A stretch of DNA of 39,781 nucleotides from contig MHRT01000005.1 in assembly GCA_001821055.1 (NCBI GenBank), forward strand, positions 1 to 39,781, written 5' to 3'. Each line of letters opens with the position of its first letter. The stretch's first letter is position 1. Shown here one piece after another: positions 3,245-25,362 of the stretch. The position numbers were made by a program, and so were the translations under genes. A model generated the notes under the pieces. That model was not told the origin of the DNA. It searched no databases and saw only the letters and a program-made list of their open reading frames with translations. Source of the DNA: Candidatus Taylorbacteria bacterium RIFCSPHIGHO2_12_FULL_45_16 (lineage in GTDB: Bacteria > Patescibacteriota > Minisyncoccia > Phycocordibacterales > PALSA-1337).

Positions 3245-3544
3245 ATGGCCTTACAAACTACCCTCGAAAACCTCCGTGCTAAGCCAGAACACATCCGCAA
3301 GCGTGTAGCTTTCTGGACTTCTTTCGGCATCACAGCCATCATCTTCGCATTCTGGCTGGCTTCATTCTCCATAACAGGTAGCACGGCGAATACAGCCGTC
3401 GCCACTGCTGTCGCCAAAGCCGGCAATCCTGGAAGCTCACTCATTGCTGGTGTCGGAAACTTTTTTGTTGATATCAAAGAAATGATTTTTGGCGCCAGGA
3501 AGATCAAGTATAGCGAAGTGGAGGTTAGGGCGGGGGATAGGTGA
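3245..3544 (+). CDS. Small single-span membrane protein
   Basis: A 99-residue protein with a basic N-terminus (KPEHIRKR at about 14-21), one hydrophobic segment at about 22-44, an Ala/Thr/Val-rich stretch, and a C-terminal soluble tail with FFVDIKEMIFG. This suggests an inner-membrane protein with a short cytoplasmic N-terminus. I do not recognise a family with known function. Its last codons overlap the 3' end of the convergent RAYT gene and the left palindrome (3542-3577), so the REP-like unit inserted at or very near its stop codon and may have supplied the final residues. Confidence 0.65.
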   Translation: MALQTTLENLRAKPEHIRKRVAFWTSFGITAIIFAFWLASFSITGSTANTAVATAVAKAGNPGSSLIAGVGNFFVDIKEMIFGARKIKYSEVEVRAGDR

Positions 3545-4118
3545 GGTCGGACCTCCAGATCTGGAGGTCCGACCTCAAGATAGAGCTCTGCTGCCGAATT
3601 TCGCCTAAATAATCTTTGAAACTGGAATATTCATATGTTTTTGAATATTCAATTGCTTCATTACTAAATTCTTGTCTCGATTCTCTTGTAAGATTTGGAC
3701 TCTCAATTCCAAATGGATTTAGATGAATGTAATTTATGAGGATGCGGAGATACTCCTCATCCATAACGGATTTAGCTTTGTATTTTCCTTGGAATATAGT
3801 TCCTGAATGTTTGTATTTGATATTGTAGTACATTGAATAACCGGTGCATATTTTCCTAATAAAGCGTGTCATTCCATCAGGGACGCACTCTCTTAGTGCG
3901 ATATGAAAATGGTTTGGCATTAGGCAATAAGCTACAATTTCTACTAGCATTTTTTCACGATATATTTTGAAAATACTTATTTCTGCGTGGTCTGCCAGTT
4001 GAAATGGATTGTGATTATTTCCTATATATAATAAATACAGAAAACGCCAATAATCTTGTTGATCATTGAAAATAAGTGCCCTATGAGCGCCTCGATTGTA
4101 TATGTGGTAATAGTCCAT
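3525..4118 (-). CDS. REP-associated tyrosine transposase (RAYT, Y1/HUH family)
   Basis: A 197-residue Y1_Tnp-family protein starting MDYYHIYNRG. The HUH motif is MPNHFH (H70, H72), and the nicking tyrosine is probably Y130 in INYIHLNP. RAYTs are single-strand DNA endonucleases that recognise REP palindromes as hairpins; they descend from IS200/IS605 transposases and are usually domesticated. Near-identical palindromes lie directly at its start codon (4119-4160) and over its last codons (3542-3577), so the left palindrome encodes part of the C-terminus. A response-regulator-type promoter lies just upstream at 4157-4211. No good ribosome site is present except a GGAGG buried in the hairpin stem. 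Length is normal for the family and the motifs are intact, so it may be active. Confidence 0.88.
   Translation of the reverse strand: MDYYHIYNRGAHRALIFNDQQDYWRFLYLLYIGNNHNPFQLADHAEISIFKIYREKMLVEIVAYCLMPNHFHIALRECVPDGMTRFIRKICTGYSMYYNIKYKHSGTIFQGKYKAKSVMDEEYLRILINYIHLNPFGIESPNLTRESRQEFSNEAIEYSKTYEYSSFKDYLGEIRQQSSILRSDLQIWRSDLTYPPP
3542..3577. repeat. Left REP-like palindrome of the RAYT unit
   Basis: A perfect 36-bp palindrome centred on CCAGATCTGG, with no loop. It overlaps the last codons of both the plus-strand membrane-protein gene and the minus-strand RAYT gene. It matches the palindrome at 4119-4160 at all but one position of the shared core. RAYT-associated REP sequences have this arrangement. 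Confidence 0.85.
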
Positions 4119-4160
4119 CGGTGAGGTCGAACCTCCAGATCTGGAGGTCCGACCTCACCG
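4119..4160. repeat. Right REP-like palindrome of the RAYT unit
   Basis: A 42-bp palindrome with one mismatched pair (4130 against 4149), same core as 3542-3577. It ends exactly against the RAYT start codon and overlaps the -10 region of its promoter, so the RAYT mRNA would begin inside the palindrome. Folding could hide the only GGAGG near the start, giving a built-in brake on translation. Confidence 0.85.
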
Positions 4161-4932: not shown

Positions 4933-7470
4933 ATGGCCAAGAAGCAGGACAAAATCAGCGCGGAACTGGAACCGACAGCACGTGGAGCGGGCGCCGGTGT
5001 TGTGGCACGCAACATCACCACCGAGATGCGCGAGTCATTTCTTGACTACGCCATGTCCGTCATCACCGATCGTGCGCTTCCAGATGTGCGTGACGGTCTC
5101 AAACCGGTGCATCGCCGTATCCTCTACGCCATGCATGAGAAGGGTCTGACATTCTCCGCCAAGTTCCGCAAGTCCGCAGTCGTCGTCGGAGATGTGCTCG
5201 GTAACTATCACCCCCATGGCGACGTGGCTGTCTATGATTCCATGGTCAAAATGGCCCAGGATTTCACCATGCGCTATCCGCTCATTCAGGGACAGGGAAA
5301 CTTCGGCACGGTTGACGGCGACTCCGCCGCCGCCATGCGTTACACCGAGGCCAAAATGGCCCGTGTTTCCGCCGAACTTCTTCGCGACATGGACAAGAAA
5401 ACCGTTGATTTTCGTCCAAACTATGATGGCACACGTCAAGAGCCGACTGTATTGCCGACCGCGGTTCCGAATCTTTTGTTGAATGGCACGCTCGGTATCG
5501 CCGTCGGTATGGCCACCAACATCGCTCCGCACAATCTTCGCGAAGTTATTGATGCGACTATTCATCTGGTTGATAACAGTGATGCAACCACAGAAGATCT
5601 TTTTGCATTCATCAAAGGTCCTGATTTTCCAACCGGCGCCGTCATCTATGGCGAGAAAGACATTCATCACGCATACGCCACTGGCCGTGGTGGCGTGACA
5701 GTTCGCGGTGAGGCCGAGATAGTCGAAGATAAAAAAGGCCAGTATCAGATCGTCATTTCCTCCATTCCATACCGTGTCAATAAATCCGAACTGATCATCA
5801 AGATGGCGGACCTAGTTCGTGAGAAAGTCGTTGAGGGCGTGAAAGGTCTGCGTGATGAATCAGACAAAGAGATGCGCATCGTTCTTGATCTCAAGAATGG
5901 CGCCTATCCGGAGAAGATTTTGAACTTGCTTTACAAGCATACTCAGCTCGAAGAAGCTTTTCATATGAACATGGTGGCATTGGTCCATGGCGTGCCGCAG
6001 ACGCTCTCCATCAAATCTTTCTTGGAAGAGTTCGTCGAGCATCGCATCGAAGTCATCCGCCGCCGGACTAAATTTGACCTCGATGCCGCTGAAGCTCGCG
6101 AACACATTTTGCTCGGATTAAGAAAAGCTCTTGATCATATTGATGAAATAATCAAACTCATTCGCGCTTCAACTGATGTAGCTGATGCTCATGCCGGATT
6201 GATGAAACAATTCAAGTTTAGTGACAAGCAAGCCACAGCGATTCTCGAAATGCGTTTGCAGAAACTGGCTGGCCTGGAACGAAAGAAAGTTTTGGATGAG
6301 CTCAAAGAAGTTCAGACGCTCATCGAAGAATTGAGGAGCATTTTGGGCAGTGAGAAGAAAGTTCGCACCATCATCAAAACCGAACTTGGCCAGATCAAGG
6401 AGAAATATGGTGATGATCGCCGAACCAAGATTATCAAACACGGCGTCAAGGAATTCAATCCCGAAGATTTGATTGCTGATGAAGAGTCTGTGCTGGTTCT
6501 GACCAAAGGTGGCTATGTCAAACGCACCAATCCGGATGAGTACCGCAAGCAGAAACGCGGCGGTGTCGGCGTGGTTGATCTGGATACAAAGGAGGAGGAT
6601 TTCATTTCCCATCTTGTCTTTGCTTCAACTCACAATGATCTCCTGTTCTTTTCTGACAAAGGTAAGGCCTATCAGATCAAGATGTATGACATTCCGGAAG
6701 GCAAGCGGGCCACCAAGGGCAAGTCGTTGATGAATTTCCTGTCTCTGGCTGAAGGCGAGCATGTGACTTCTATTTTGCCGATGCCCAAGAATAAAAAGGA
6801 GGCTGAAGGACTTTCACTTATGATGGTCACCAAAGGCGGTACAGGCAAAAAATGTTCAGCTACTCATTTCAAAGACGTCCGCCGTTCCGGTTTGATCGCT
6901 ATCACGTTGGACGTCGGTGACGAGCTCATCTCTGCTTCTTTTGTTTCCAAAAATGACACTATCACCATCGCCACCAAAGAAGGCCAGTCAATCCGTTTTG
7001 CCGAAGATGATGTCCGCGAAATGGGCCGCAATGCCGCCGGTGTTCGCGTCATCAAGCTCGGCTCCGCCTCTCCTTCGCGAAATGCTTCTGAGGAGCGAGG
7101 CAAGGCTTCGGCGGACAAGAAAGGCGACCACGTTATTTCCGCCGATGTTGTTTCCAAAGATGCCAAGAATCCAGCTCTCTTCGTTATGGGTGCCAACGGC
7201 TATGGCAAAAAGACCAAGCTCGATGAATACAAAGTCCAGAACCGTGGCGGTTCCGGCATTCTCACTATGAATGTTACCGCCAAGACCGGTCCGCTCATCG
7301 CCGCCAAGGTCGTGACTGATGATGAGGAGGAGGTAGTCGCCATGTCAAAGAAGTCGCAGGTCATCCGCGTTGACCTCAAAGAAATCCCTACATTGTCGCG
7401 CGCTACGCAGGGTGTGAGGGTCATGAAGCTCCGCGAAGGGGATAATCTGGCGAGTTTGATTTGTTTGTAA
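4933..7470 (+). CDS. gyrA: DNA gyrase subunit A
   Basis: 845 residues. The N-terminal breakage-reunion domain contains the catalytic tyrosine Y137 in [10 protein letters not shown]. The C-terminal beta-pinwheel contains a GyrA box, QKRGGVG at 540-546, marking it as gyrase rather than topoisomerase IV. With GyrB it introduces negative supercoils. The quinolone-region motif reads [10 protein letters not shown]: Val stands where E. coli has Ser83, while Asp87 is kept. Between VRVIKL and [10 protein letters not shown] in the pinwheel, about residues 710-729 are an in-frame insertion encoded by the palindromic element at 7065-7114. The ATG at 4933 has no Shine-Dalgarno site. gyrB begins near the far end of the window, so the two genes are not an operon here. 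Confidence 0.96.
7065..7114 (+). repeat. Palindromic insertion element, copy 1 (inside gyrA)
   Basis: A 50-bp GC-rich segment that matches, in reverse complement, 13368-13417 inside rplC at 48 of 50 positions. It adds about 19 residues (including [16 protein letters not shown]) to the GyrA pinwheel without breaking the frame. The behaviour matches Rickettsia palindromic elements, which insert in frame in essential genes. Confidence 0.85.
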
Positions 7471-12508: not shown

Positions 12509-12943
12509 ATGGCCACAGAACATAAAACAACTAAAAAAGAAGCACACCCTAAGCCAGTTGTCGCCAAGTCGGCCGCTGTCAAAGCAGTCCGAACACCTCG
12601 CGCACCTCGCGTCAAAAAATCCAAGGTTGTCGGCGAAGTACCGCATCTCCGAATTCGTGTGCGCGCCTATGAGCACAAGATTCTGGATACTTCATTGAAA
12701 CAGATTATGGATACGGCCGCTCGTTATGATGCCGAGATCCATGGTCCGGTGCCATTGCCGACGGAGATCAAGAAGTACACGGTCAACCGCTCGTCATTCA
12801 TCGACAAGAACAGCCGCGAACAGTTCGAGATGAGAGTGCACAAGAGATTGATCGACATTATAAATCCCAATCCGAAGGTCATCGAAGCGCTGACAAACTT
12901 GAGTCTTCCATCGGGAGTGAACATAGACGTGAAGATGATGTAG
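12509..12943 (+). CDS. rpsJ: 30S ribosomal protein S10 with N-terminal extension
   Basis: 144 residues. The S10 core starts near residue 46 (LRIRVRAYEHKILDTSLKQI) and includes GPVPLPTEIKKYTVNRSSFIDKNSREQFEMRVHKR, a normal match. The first 45 residues are an Ala/Lys/Pro-rich extension not found in typical 100-residue S10. S10 helps form the 30S head and is the NusB partner in antitermination. A 159-nt inverted-repeat structure begins 4 bp after its stop codon. Confidence 0.95.
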   Translation: MATEHKTTKKEAHPKPVVAKSAAVKAVRTPRAPRVKKSKVVGEVPHLRIRVRAYEHKILDTSLKQIMDTAARYDAEIHGPVPLPTEIKKYTVNRSSFIDKNSREQFEMRVHKRLIDIINPNPKVIEALTNLSLPSGVNIDVKMM

Positions 12944-12946
12944 GGA

Positions 12947-13105
12947 AAATGGTGGTGTGCACTTTGATTTTATTCGCCTGCGGAACTCGCATCGGACAAT
13001 TGTAAGACATGTTCGGCTCGGAACGACAGAGCCTCCATGTCAAACAATTGTCGACGATGCTCAGACAGTCCTCGGCTTATAAAACCAAAGTGCACACCAC
13101 CATTT
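12947..13105 (+). repeat. 159-nt long inverted-repeat structure between rpsJ and rplC
   Basis: The outer arms are perfect over 20 bp (12947-12966 with 13086-13105). Pairing continues inward: 12968-12973 with 13079-13084; 12989-12994 with 13055-13060; 12995-13003 with 13044-13052; 13006-13011 with 13036-13041; and 13015-13019 with 13029-13033. It has small symmetric loops and a terminal loop of 9 nt. No coding sequence lies inside. It ends 15 bp before the rplC start. Either a MITE-like mobile element or a structured RNA acting on rpsJ-rplC. No clear target duplication is visible at the ends. Confidence 0.8.
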
Positions 13106-13120
13106 GAGTGCAACAAAAAC

Positions 13121-13804
13121 ATGAAATTCATTTTAGGACGAAAACTGAATATGACCCAGATCTTCGACGCTTCCGGCGCTGCTTTGCCAGTGACCGCGGT
13201 TTCAGTGCGTTCAAATGTCGTTACCCAGGTGCGCACCAAGGATACAGATGGCTATGAAGCTCTCCAGGTTGGTGAAGGATCACGCAATCCAAACCGCATA
13301 GCCAAGCCGCAAAAGGGTCACTTCAAAGAACTTGGTTCTTTCGCTTCAGTTCGTGAATTCCGCTTGCCCGCCGTAGCCTTGCCTCGCTCCTCCGAAGCAT
13401 TTCGCGAAGGAGAGGCGAAGGCGGGCGATTTTACTCCAGGAGCAGGTACTCCAACACCCAAAGTCGGTGACAAAGTCGAGCTCTCCCAGTTCGCGGCCGG
13501 CGATGTCGTCACGGTGAGCGCCATTTCCAAAGGTAAAGGTTTCCAAGGCGTGGTCAAACGCCACGGCTTCGGTGGCGGACCTCGTTCTCACGGTCAGAAG
13601 CACTCCGAGCGCGAGCCTGGTTCTATCGGTGGCGGTCTTCGCACACGTGTGCCAGTCGGTATGCGCATGGCCGGACGCATGGGCTCTGACCGAATTACGG
13701 TGAAAAATCTGAAAATTGTTCATATCGATGCCGAAGAGAGTGTCATGTATGTTTCAGGAGCTATTCCAGGAAGGAGGGGGACGTTGGTGGAGATTGTTGC
13801 GTAA
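13121..13804 (+). CDS. rplC: 50S ribosomal protein L3, with in-frame element insertion
   Basis: 227 residues from the ATG at 13121 (MKFILGRKLNMTQIFD, the usual L3 start). Core motifs GKGFQGVVKRHGFGGGPRSHGQKHSEREPGSIG and MAGRMG are intact. L3 starts 50S assembly and its loop reaches the peptidyl-transferase centre. Residues of about 82-102 (including [14 protein letters not shown]) are not family sequence: they come from the palindromic element at 13366-13426, inserted in frame ahead of KVGDKVELSQF. In this copy the element is in the opposite orientation to that in gyrA and is read in a different frame. Confidence 0.95.
   Translation: MKFILGRKLNMTQIFDASGAALPVTAVSVRSNVVTQVRTKDTDGYEALQVGEGSRNPNRIAKPQKGHFKELGSFASVREFRLPAVALPRSSEAFREGEAKAGDFTPGAGTPTPKVGDKVELSQFAAGDVVTVSAISKGKGFQGVVKRHGFGGGPRSHGQKHSEREPGSIGGGLRTRVPVGMRMAGRMGSDRITVKNLKIVHIDAEESVMYVSGAIPGRRGTLVEIVA
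13366..13426 (-). repeat. Palindromic insertion element, copy 2 (inside rplC)
   Basis: A 61-bp imperfect palindrome. GCCCGCC (13366-13372) pairs with GGCGGGC (13420-13426), with an inner stem of GCCT/AGGC and CTCCT/AGGAG and an apical CGAA-GCAT-TTCG. Its 13368-13417 part matches the reverse complement of 7065-7114 in gyrA at 48 of 50 positions. It is GC-richer than its surroundings and lacks stops in the frame used. Confidence 0.88.
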
Positions 13805-13956
13805 ATTTTCATGTTGATTAATAAAAATATACAAACCTGGTCTGGATTCTCTGTTGCTGTCGCCATTTTTTCTGATTGCTAGAGTGACTTTACCGTTAAG
13901 TCCGGAAGCCACCCTATGGGCGGTTTTTGCAATCAAAAAAGAAATGGAGTCTATAT

Positions 13957-14577
13957 ATGCACCACGCAGTTAAAAATCGTATCGCAGTTCACCGTATTCA
14001 ATTACAACATTTACCAATCCCAGAAGAGAGAGCGTTGTTTATTCTCCAAGAAAAAGGAATTCGAGTCATTGAAGTAGATATTATTGCTATAGCGAAGGGT
14101 TTGATAGGAAAAGCATCGTGGAAATTTGGCGCGCGTCAACATGAAGCACCACTGTTTTTTGATTGTTCGAGTCTGACCAAATGGCTTTGTGGTCAGAGAG
14201 GAATCTGGATTCCTCGTCGCCCGACCCAACAGTTTATACACTGTCGTAGTCATGCGAACACTTTGCATTTGAGCGAGGCAAAACCAGGAGATCTCTTGTT
14301 CACGAATAGTCCATTCAAAAATGGTGTCATGTATGAGATCGACGACACGATCGGCCATGTCTTTTTTGTAACTGACAAAGAGACCGCAATCTGTGCCACA
14401 AATAGCGAGTTCGGCACAGGCATATTCGAGGTTTCATTTGCTGATATATTCAAGACTAGAAAGTTCTTGGATGTTGGTAGGGTCATGACTAATGACGTGG
14501 TCACATTCCTCACTCCACCCCATCGAGAGGTTGAAACATCAGATGATATAGTGCAAATTGTTCTTCAGTCTTTGTGA
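13957..14577 (+). CDS. NlpC/P60-like cysteine peptidase
   Basis: 206 residues from the ATG at 13957, chosen because GGAG lies 8 nt upstream. Features of the NlpC/P60 papain-like fold: catalytic Cys in FFDCSSLTKWL (C70), then AKPGDLLFTNSP, and the catalytic His in IGHVFFVTD (H134). The family cleaves gamma-D-Glu-DAP or related bonds in peptidoglycan stems. No signal peptide is seen, so it may act in the cytoplasm or be exported otherwise. A possible extended -10 (TGCTAGAGT, 13877-13885) and a weak hairpin with T5 (about 13907-13927) precede it. It interrupts the ribosomal-protein order between rplC and rplD. Confidence 0.75.
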   Translation: MHHAVKNRIAVHRIQLQHLPIPEERALFILQEKGIRVIEVDIIAIAKGLIGKASWKFGARQHEAPLFFDCSSLTKWLCGQRGIWIPRRPTQQFIHCRSHANTLHLSEAKPGDLLFTNSPFKNGVMYEIDDTIGHVFFVTDKETAICATNSEFGTGIFEVSFADIFKTRKFLDVGRVMTNDVVTFLTPPHREVETSDDIVQIVLQSL

Positions 14578-14582
14578 ACCAT

Positions 14583-14617
14583 CGACGCTTTCTGTAAATT
14601 GAAAGCGTCGTTTATTT
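14583..14617 (+). terminator. Terminator of the NlpC/P60 gene
   Basis: A perfect 10-bp stem (14583-14592 with 14601-14610), 8-nt loop, followed by TTTATTTTT, five bases after the stop codon. Confidence 0.85.
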
Positions 14618-14660
14618 TTACACCAAACTGATCTTCAACTCCACACCCAGCGCTTTGCGC

Positions 14661-14688
14661 TTGACAATTCATTTCAAGAGAATATAAT
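14661..14688 (+). promoter_or_regulatory. Orphan near-consensus promoter
   Basis: TTGACA (14661-14666), a 16-nt spacer and TATAAT (14683-14688): both hexamers are perfect. No plus-strand gene follows for 720 bp except rplD, which has its own promoter. Transcription from here would run antisense into the nuclease gene at 14779-15186. Confidence 0.65.
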
Positions 14689-14769
14689 TGCACCAATAAC
14701 TGCTTGTGGCCATTGGAGTTGCGCCCAAGATGGTACAATCGGCACTGTTGCTGATGGCAGGCACTATGA

Positions 14770-14792
14770 CAAGCCCCTTTACGGGGCTTGTG
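14770..14792. other. Perfect hairpin at the 3' end of the nuclease gene
   Basis: ACAAGCCCC and GGGGCTTGT form a 9-bp stem with a 5-nt loop. The nuclease stop codon lies in the loop. There is no T-run on either strand, so it may block 3' exonucleases or end a short transcript from the promoter at 14661. Confidence 0.5.
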
Positions 14793-15186
14793 CGCTTGTC
14801 GAGGATCTTCTGTCCATGACACTGAAAAAATGTTTGTTGCCGTTGTCTATTTGTCTGATTATGATTCGTATTCTCTTTTTGTTTTCAAAACGAGTGAATG
14901 TCCATGAATGTATAAATGATGATGCGTTGTTTCTGTTCGGTCCAGAATAATATTTTGAAAATGTTTGAGCCGTTTTAAGTATTGGTATCACTCTTTCAAA
15001 AAGTCTCATCCTGCGCATGCGATCAGATAGTGACCTGGGTTTTCCGTGTTTAAACATAAGATGGTAAAATCCATGGTAATTAAAAACAACCACTTGGCCA
15101 CCAAAAGCGGGGCAGATTGTGGAACTTACTTGATAGTAGATTCTCTTAGCTTCATCAATAAATGTTTGGTTTTCCTTGTCTTGCAT
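14779..15186 (-). CDS. Possible BECR-fold nuclease (barnase/EndoU/colicin/RelE-like)
   Basis: 135 residues. FNYHGFYHLMFKHG (His-containing), then RMRRMRLFERVIPILKTAQ, and a C-terminal WTFTRFENKKRIRIIIRQIDNGNKHFFSV. This order (HL..K, an RL-rich helix, basic strands, then RQ...G..HF.SV) resembles the phage barnase-EndoU-ColicinE5/D-RelE-like nuclease families that are common in Patescibacteria and phages. The assignment is by pattern only. A single gene with no obvious antitoxin beside it. Its promoter has three 11-bp boxes (15193-15236), and an orphan promoter points antisense at its 3' end. The predicted start of transcription coincides with the ATG. Confidence 0.55.
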   Translation of the reverse strand: MQDKENQTFIDEAKRIYYQVSSTICPAFGGQVVVFNYHGFYHLMFKHGKPRSLSDRMRRMRLFERVIPILKTAQTFSKYYSGPNRNNASSFIHSWTFTRFENKKRIRIIIRQIDNGNKHFFSVMDRRSSTSAQAP

Positions 15187-15192
15187 GTCCGA

Positions 15193-15236
15193 ATCCTATC
15201 AAACTAGAATGAAGAAACAATGAAGAAATGATGAAG
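15193..15236 (-). promoter_or_regulatory. Nuclease promoter: three 11-bp-spaced boxes plus extended -10
   Basis: Minus strand CTTCAT at 15236-15231, 15225-15220 and 15214-15209, then exactly 7 nt, then TGATAGGAT (15201-15193). The start would be at about 15186, the A of the ATG, giving a leaderless mRNA. Geometry matches the promoters at 4157-4211 and 10008-10062. Confidence 0.65.
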
Positions 15237-15306
15237 ATTCTATAGTACGCCTAAAAATATAGCCTTTAGACAGATTATCGAGGGTTGGAATGGAAATAAA
15301 CCGAGT

Positions 15307-15335
15307 TTGACTTCATCTATCGCCTTTGCTACTAT
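15307..15335 (+). promoter_or_regulatory. Promoter of rplD-rplW-rplB
   Basis: TTGACT (15307-15312), a 17-nt spacer and TACTAT (15330-15335) preceded by TGC. The leader of about 70 nt contains a short GCTC-GCAA-GGGC hairpin followed by ATTTTTG (about 15351-15367), a weak attenuator-like element. Confidence 0.7.
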
Positions 15336-15410
15336 GTTCCAACACGCTCGCAAGGGCATTTTTGTTTCAAAACTCGTCAAATCCGCCCAAATTAAATTTC
15401 TAACTCTAAC

Positions 15411-25272: not shown

Positions 25273-25277
25273 AACAT

Positions 25278-25344
25278 AGAGATTAGTAACTAGTAATTAG
25301 AAAAACAAAAAGTCCAAATCTCTAGTTACTAATTACTAATCTCT
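25278..25344. repeat. AT-rich intergenic inverted repeat (rpsC-rplP)
   Basis: Arms 25278-25300 and 25322-25344 pair at 21 of 23 positions around a 21-nt loop. Related sequence words (AACTAGTAATT, TAATTACTA, AATCTCT) recur in the spacers at 26351-26416, 26806-26868 and 27102-27160, each between ribosomal genes. They may be spacer hairpins that protect or separate cistrons. Confidence 0.55.
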
Positions 25345-25362
25345 AACTACTAAACTACTACC

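Follow-up and report, generated by a model that had tools for sequence, protein, structure and literature searches.

The hairpin between rpsJ and rplC

The window, i.e., the whole stretch of 39,781 nucleotides that was analysed (contig MHRT01000005.1 of Candidatus Taylorbacteria bacterium RIFCSPHIGHO2_12_FULL_45_16), contains rpsJ (12509-12943, stop at 12943) and rplC (ATG at 13121), whose products S10 and L3 are confirmed by Pfam. The two genes are separated by a gap of 177 nt, mostly filled by a 159-nt inverted repeat (12947-13105) which ends 15 nt before the start of rplC. The architecture given by the original prediction, i.e., arms of 20 bp, at least five inner stems and a 9-nt loop, is confirmed.

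The 20 bp of the outer arms (12947-12966 and 13086-13105) pair perfectly. They are followed, after a mismatch, by a stem of 6 bp (12968-12973/13079-13084), and the whole outer helix (P1) is made of a left arm (12947-12973), whose sequence is unique to the site, and of its complement (13079-13105). Further inward, motif X (A), CCTGCGGAACTCGC, at 12977-12990 and motif Y (B), GCTCAGACAGTCCTCGG, at 13059-13075, both read on the plus strand, are the opposite sides of an invariant internal loop. The left inner arm (12991-13019; P2 and further helices) reads ATCG-GACAATTGT-..-GACATG-..-GGCTC and faces the right inner arm (13029-13058). Their stems are 12991-12994/13055-13058, 12995-13003/13044-13052, 13006-13011/13036-13041 and 13015-13019/13029-13033, the last one being closed by the apical loop of 9 nt (13020-13028). 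A repeat search describes the same object as arms of 32 nt with 91% complementarity.

Folded as RNA, the 159 nt pair nearly end to end with an MFE of -81.5 kcal/mol, vs. -37.0 +/- 4.0 kcal/mol for dinucleotide shuffles (z = -11.1; none of the 200 shuffles reaches the native value). The opposite strand folded as ssDNA gives a z of -11.8. It is the strongest hairpin of the window, in which 4 hairpins exceed the threshold vs. 0-1 in Markov controls.

Among the relatives with a readable rpsJ-rplC gap, only the genome of the window has the X/Y element there. The gap of the others either is 22-43 nt long or contains hairpins of unrelated sequence, roughly half of the relatives having no hairpin whatever; no homologous element is available in this gap for a locus-level covariation analysis. 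No Rfam covariance model matches the element at gathering score, and permissive thresholds give only chance-like miRNA/sRNA matches, all below gathering. A terminator- or promoter-like site was looked for at the element and none was found.

Other features of the neighbourhood must be noticed. The rplC gene itself contains, in frame, another palindrome of a different kind (about 13363-13426), around L3 residues 84-108, which are unaligned in most relatives, and a copy of it with 91% identity is found at 7056-7119. About 1.6 kb (13805-15410) separate rplC from rplD and interrupt the S10 operon; an NlpC/P60-domain gene (13927-14577) lies there. An inverted repeat of 25 bp with TAGTAATTAG-type words is localized at 25277-25345, and in another species (L081) the rpsJ-rplC gap holds a hairpin of similar kind.

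The X/Y internal loop and its distribution

The core of the element is the internal loop, in which X2-X12 (CTGCGGAACTC) is opposite Y3-Y16 (TCARACAGTCCTCG). It is nearly invariant among 88 non-redundant copies (61 X-Y and 27 Y-X), an invariance which is partly built in because the copies were gathered by X/Y similarity. The copies share one plan: outer helix, X, optional inner hairpin, Y, outer helix. Outer and inner helices vary from copy to copy while pairing is kept; the 8-bp outer-arm score is 5.6 and 6.5 within a copy, vs. 3.7 and 4.2 when arms are swapped between copies. Covariation was calculated on 87 copies. The closing pair X1:Y17, which is C-G, G-C or T-A, is paired in 75 of them (shuffle mean 54, maximum 64) and the first outer pair in 69 (mean 37, maximum 52), these shuffles ignoring relatedness between copies. 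Both nesting orders (X-loop-Y and Y-loop-X) are observed, which is what one would expect were the internal loop itself the unit.

In Coriobacteriaceae RUG13125 and Adlercreutzia (L391-L397), several X/Y loops follow each other in one long hairpin, with a Y spacing of 44-47 bp; inverted pairs 100-200 bp apart are also found. In fusobacterial, Bacteroidota and Marinobacter plasmid replicons (L353-L356), the motif is reduced to AACTCGCTWCGCTCAGACA and flanked by complementary arms specific to each copy; the plasmid matches are limited to this reduced motif.

The genome of the window (754 kb, 12 contigs) has a single copy when searched with the whole element, and the first 15 bases of motif Y have an exact match only at this site. 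A second, probable decayed copy in Y-X order is located at C7:44382 (L035). With one intact and one probably decayed copy, nothing indicates activity in this genome. On the contrary, the inner part of the element matches many places in sister species: motif Y (at most 1 mismatch) is present in 20 of the 53 genomes of the family, with up to 11 matches per genome, vs. one match in total for the reversed-Y control. The copy in genome G033 (L005) has the core and a related inner helix in common with the window copy, at a different locus and with unrelated outer arms. The recent G018/G030 subfamily is the exception, since its copies share their outer arms. The copies at other loci exclude a one-off duplication, which was the null hypothesis of the original prediction. 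Its proposal of a MITE-like insertion holds for the inner core, which is a dispersed repeat, and fails for the 20-bp ends, which are unique to this site.

A scan of a collection of 85k genomes with exact Y gave at least 119 stretches. Among the matches listed, X lies within 220 bp of 122 of 136 exact Y sites, vs. 4 for the reversed-X control; as the scan used Y only and X was then found nearby, this is independent support for the X/Y loop. Whole genomes contain up to 81 Y (at most 1 mismatch) in Coriobacteriaceae RUG13125, 62 in a Singulisphaera MAG, 51 in a bin and 47 in Adlercreutzia caecimuris B7 (reversed controls: 0-1). At least eight phyla are concerned (Patescibacteria, Actinomycetota, Planctomycetota, Omnitrophota, Spirochaetota, Bacillota, Pseudomonadota and Chloroflexota). 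For the groups with named non-MAG records (Adlercreutzia, HTCC5015 and Pseudomonas neustonica), contamination of bins is unlikely to be the source; for the other phyla, presence is read from MAG titles. The distribution is patchy, since 10 of 380 genomes of a phylum sample have the element. No element was found in phages and no exact Y in viral contigs, where a shorter motif occurs in 14 stretches. A search of the open-access literature for the motif letters returned nothing relevant; as far as found there, this family of palindromic inserts is previously undescribed.

Insertion sites, orientation and known systems

Copies are localized between genes and also in frame in the genes of BipA, LeuRS, DnaE, PyrG and PolA. 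The BipA copies of two species have opposite orientations and, over all in-frame copies, three run with the host gene and three against it. In Adlercreutzia, 11 codirectional intergenic copies are oriented with transcription and 10 against it, as judged with a rough home-made gene caller. No strand is thus preferred, which is not as expected of an RNA with one functional strand. In one genome (G028), the leucyl-tRNA synthetase ORF (L133) also contains a serine-hydrolase/alpha-beta-hydrolase-like domain at residues ~308-444.

The BipA linker is 24-30 bp long in most species, contains the X/Y element in two and unrelated hairpins in others. The PyrG linker follows the same pattern as the BipA linker and the rpsJ-rplC gap, most relatives having linkers of 24-36 bp at the BipA and PyrG sites. 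Tolerant sites therefore acquire different hairpins in different species. The empty BipA and PyrG sites are all diverged, and none of them forms, with a filled site, a clean pair showing target duplication. The pyrG gene of G014 (a sister species) is devoid of the core and has the outer arms, with one compensated pair differing from G020, the carrier of X/Y; one arm matches native coding sequence. In G018, copies of the left-arm repeat that have no core also have no inverted right arm, which is present in cored copies with enough sequence; the cored copies have a different right-hand context, so that other histories also fit. Read from these sequences, the PyrG and G018 cases are suggestive of arms made by local fold-back copying of a flank.

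Like MITEs, the X/Y copies are short, non-coding, dispersed and able to form stem-loops. They differ by terminal inverted repeats that are not shared, the arms being copy-specific. The window element is thus not a classical MITE, its repeated part being the internal loop.

Integron attC sites are folded single-strand sites; structure and unpaired bases determine them, and the stem is variable. The X/Y element, compared by description only, is also a fold with a variable stem but is not seen as cassette arrays.

Rickettsia palindromic elements (RPEs) are palindromes of roughly 100-150 bp, which occupy intergenic positions and are also inserted in frame into housekeeping genes unrelated to each other (PMC10969869). 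Copies of the family resemble them by in-frame insertion in unrelated ORFs, the window copy itself being intergenic. RPEs being taken by description, the differences are that X/Y copies (i) share the internal loop, rather than arms or one conserved peptide; (ii) occur in both orientations and in many phyla.

In the case of E. coli REP, recognition through a stem irregularity is known (PMC8266576). REP, BIME and REPIN sequences are, like X/Y copies, dispersed palindromes with an irregular stem and some inverted pairs; the X/Y element has a much larger internal loop and free helices. No fixed GTAG/CGTC tetranucleotide tag was seen by eye beside the helices of the copies inspected. Y1 transposase has no match in Adlercreutzia caecimuris B7 (47 copies), G457 (62), G461 (51) and G456 (23), nor in G023 (6 copies). 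Within the family, Y1 genes are present in 28 of 53 genomes and show no association with the element (13/20 vs. 15/33, Fisher p = 0.26). The element thus departs from the definition of a REPtron by both the tag and the transposase.

The window has its own TnpA-REP-like gene (Y1, RAYT; 3525-4160, minus strand, 197 aa). It is flanked by palindromes of TGAGGTCSGACCTCCAGA type (3542-3577 and 4119-4160), different from X/Y, and similar letters (GACCTCAAGGTCCGACCTC) occur in frame in the pyrG of the same genome (L187). This RAYT and its flanking palindromes are probably a REPtron separate from the X/Y element.

Nature of the element

The covarying closing pairs, the two nesting orders and the absence of a preferred orientation together point to a palindromic repeat acting at the DNA level. 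Moreover, the arms differ at nearly every site and the loop is almost unchanged, which suggests a putative factor recognising the loop and not a ribosomal control RNA. It is thus likely that the 159-nt hairpin is a dispersed, non-autonomous palindromic DNA element inserted in a tolerant spacer, with putative recognition of its loop. For the X/Y family, the most likely description is that of a non-autonomous hairpin, mobile or fold-back, with recognition through the loop, mobility being inferred from the distribution of the copies.

According to this description, the hairpin would be exposed at replication as single-stranded or cruciform DNA. A putative enzyme would recognise the X/Y loop and spread or rearrange the element, and local fold-back copying (template switching) would make the outer arms complementary or keep them so. 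Among the clusters of recurrent genes neighbouring the copies, no transposase was recognised and no cognate enzyme was found. We only tentatively extend this to the idea that an undescribed ssDNA/cruciform mobilisation system, present in at least eight phyla, uses the hairpin as its recognition site. It would recognise the loop alone and leave the helices free, and the element could thus enter spacers and reading frames and have its arms rewritten at each site.

Of the other explanations, a passive palindrome, growing and moving by replication fold-back and recombination alone with no dedicated enzyme, is unlikely. It agrees with the many unrelated hairpins found at the same tolerant sites in sister species and with the PyrG and G018 arms, which resemble local inverted copies, but leaves unexplained a loop nearly invariant across phyla between freely varying helices. 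Somewhat less probable still is a REP/REPIN element whose mobilisation would be due to a TnpA-REP resident in the host. In its favour are the dispersed intergenic palindromes, whose stem is irregular, the inverted pairs (L429, L430, L434 and L439) and the presence of Y1 genes in over half of the family genomes, one of these genes being in the window; nevertheless, the high-copy hosts and G023 have no Y1 match, the family shows neither association nor a fixed tag, and the palindrome flanking the RAYT of the window is a different one. A structured RNA (module or cis-regulator) controlling rplC or processing the S10 transcript, as initially proposed, is very improbable: the great stability of the fold, its position 15 nt before rplC, the covarying closing pairs and the presence of some hairpin in this gap in several relatives are outweighed by gaps where the hairpin is absent or unrelated in sequence, by copies in unrelated genes and in both orientations, and by the lack of Rfam match, terminator and promoter.

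The hairpin is not an S10-operon regulatory RNA, and regulation of rplC by it is not supported. In the S10 operon the element would be a tolerated passenger, whose hairpin in the transcript may incidentally affect mRNA stability.

The dispersed palindromes known in bacteria retain the sequence of their stem or of their ends, and a named transposase usually goes with them. The X/Y family reverses this pattern, i.e., its stem is variable and its interior loop is kept, and it is also found inside essential genes of bacteria with reduced genomes. These results are a warning that a strong hairpin in an operon gap, even one that covaries, can be a DNA element and not a regulatory RNA. A cognate enzyme, if there is one, would be a new factor recognising hairpins.
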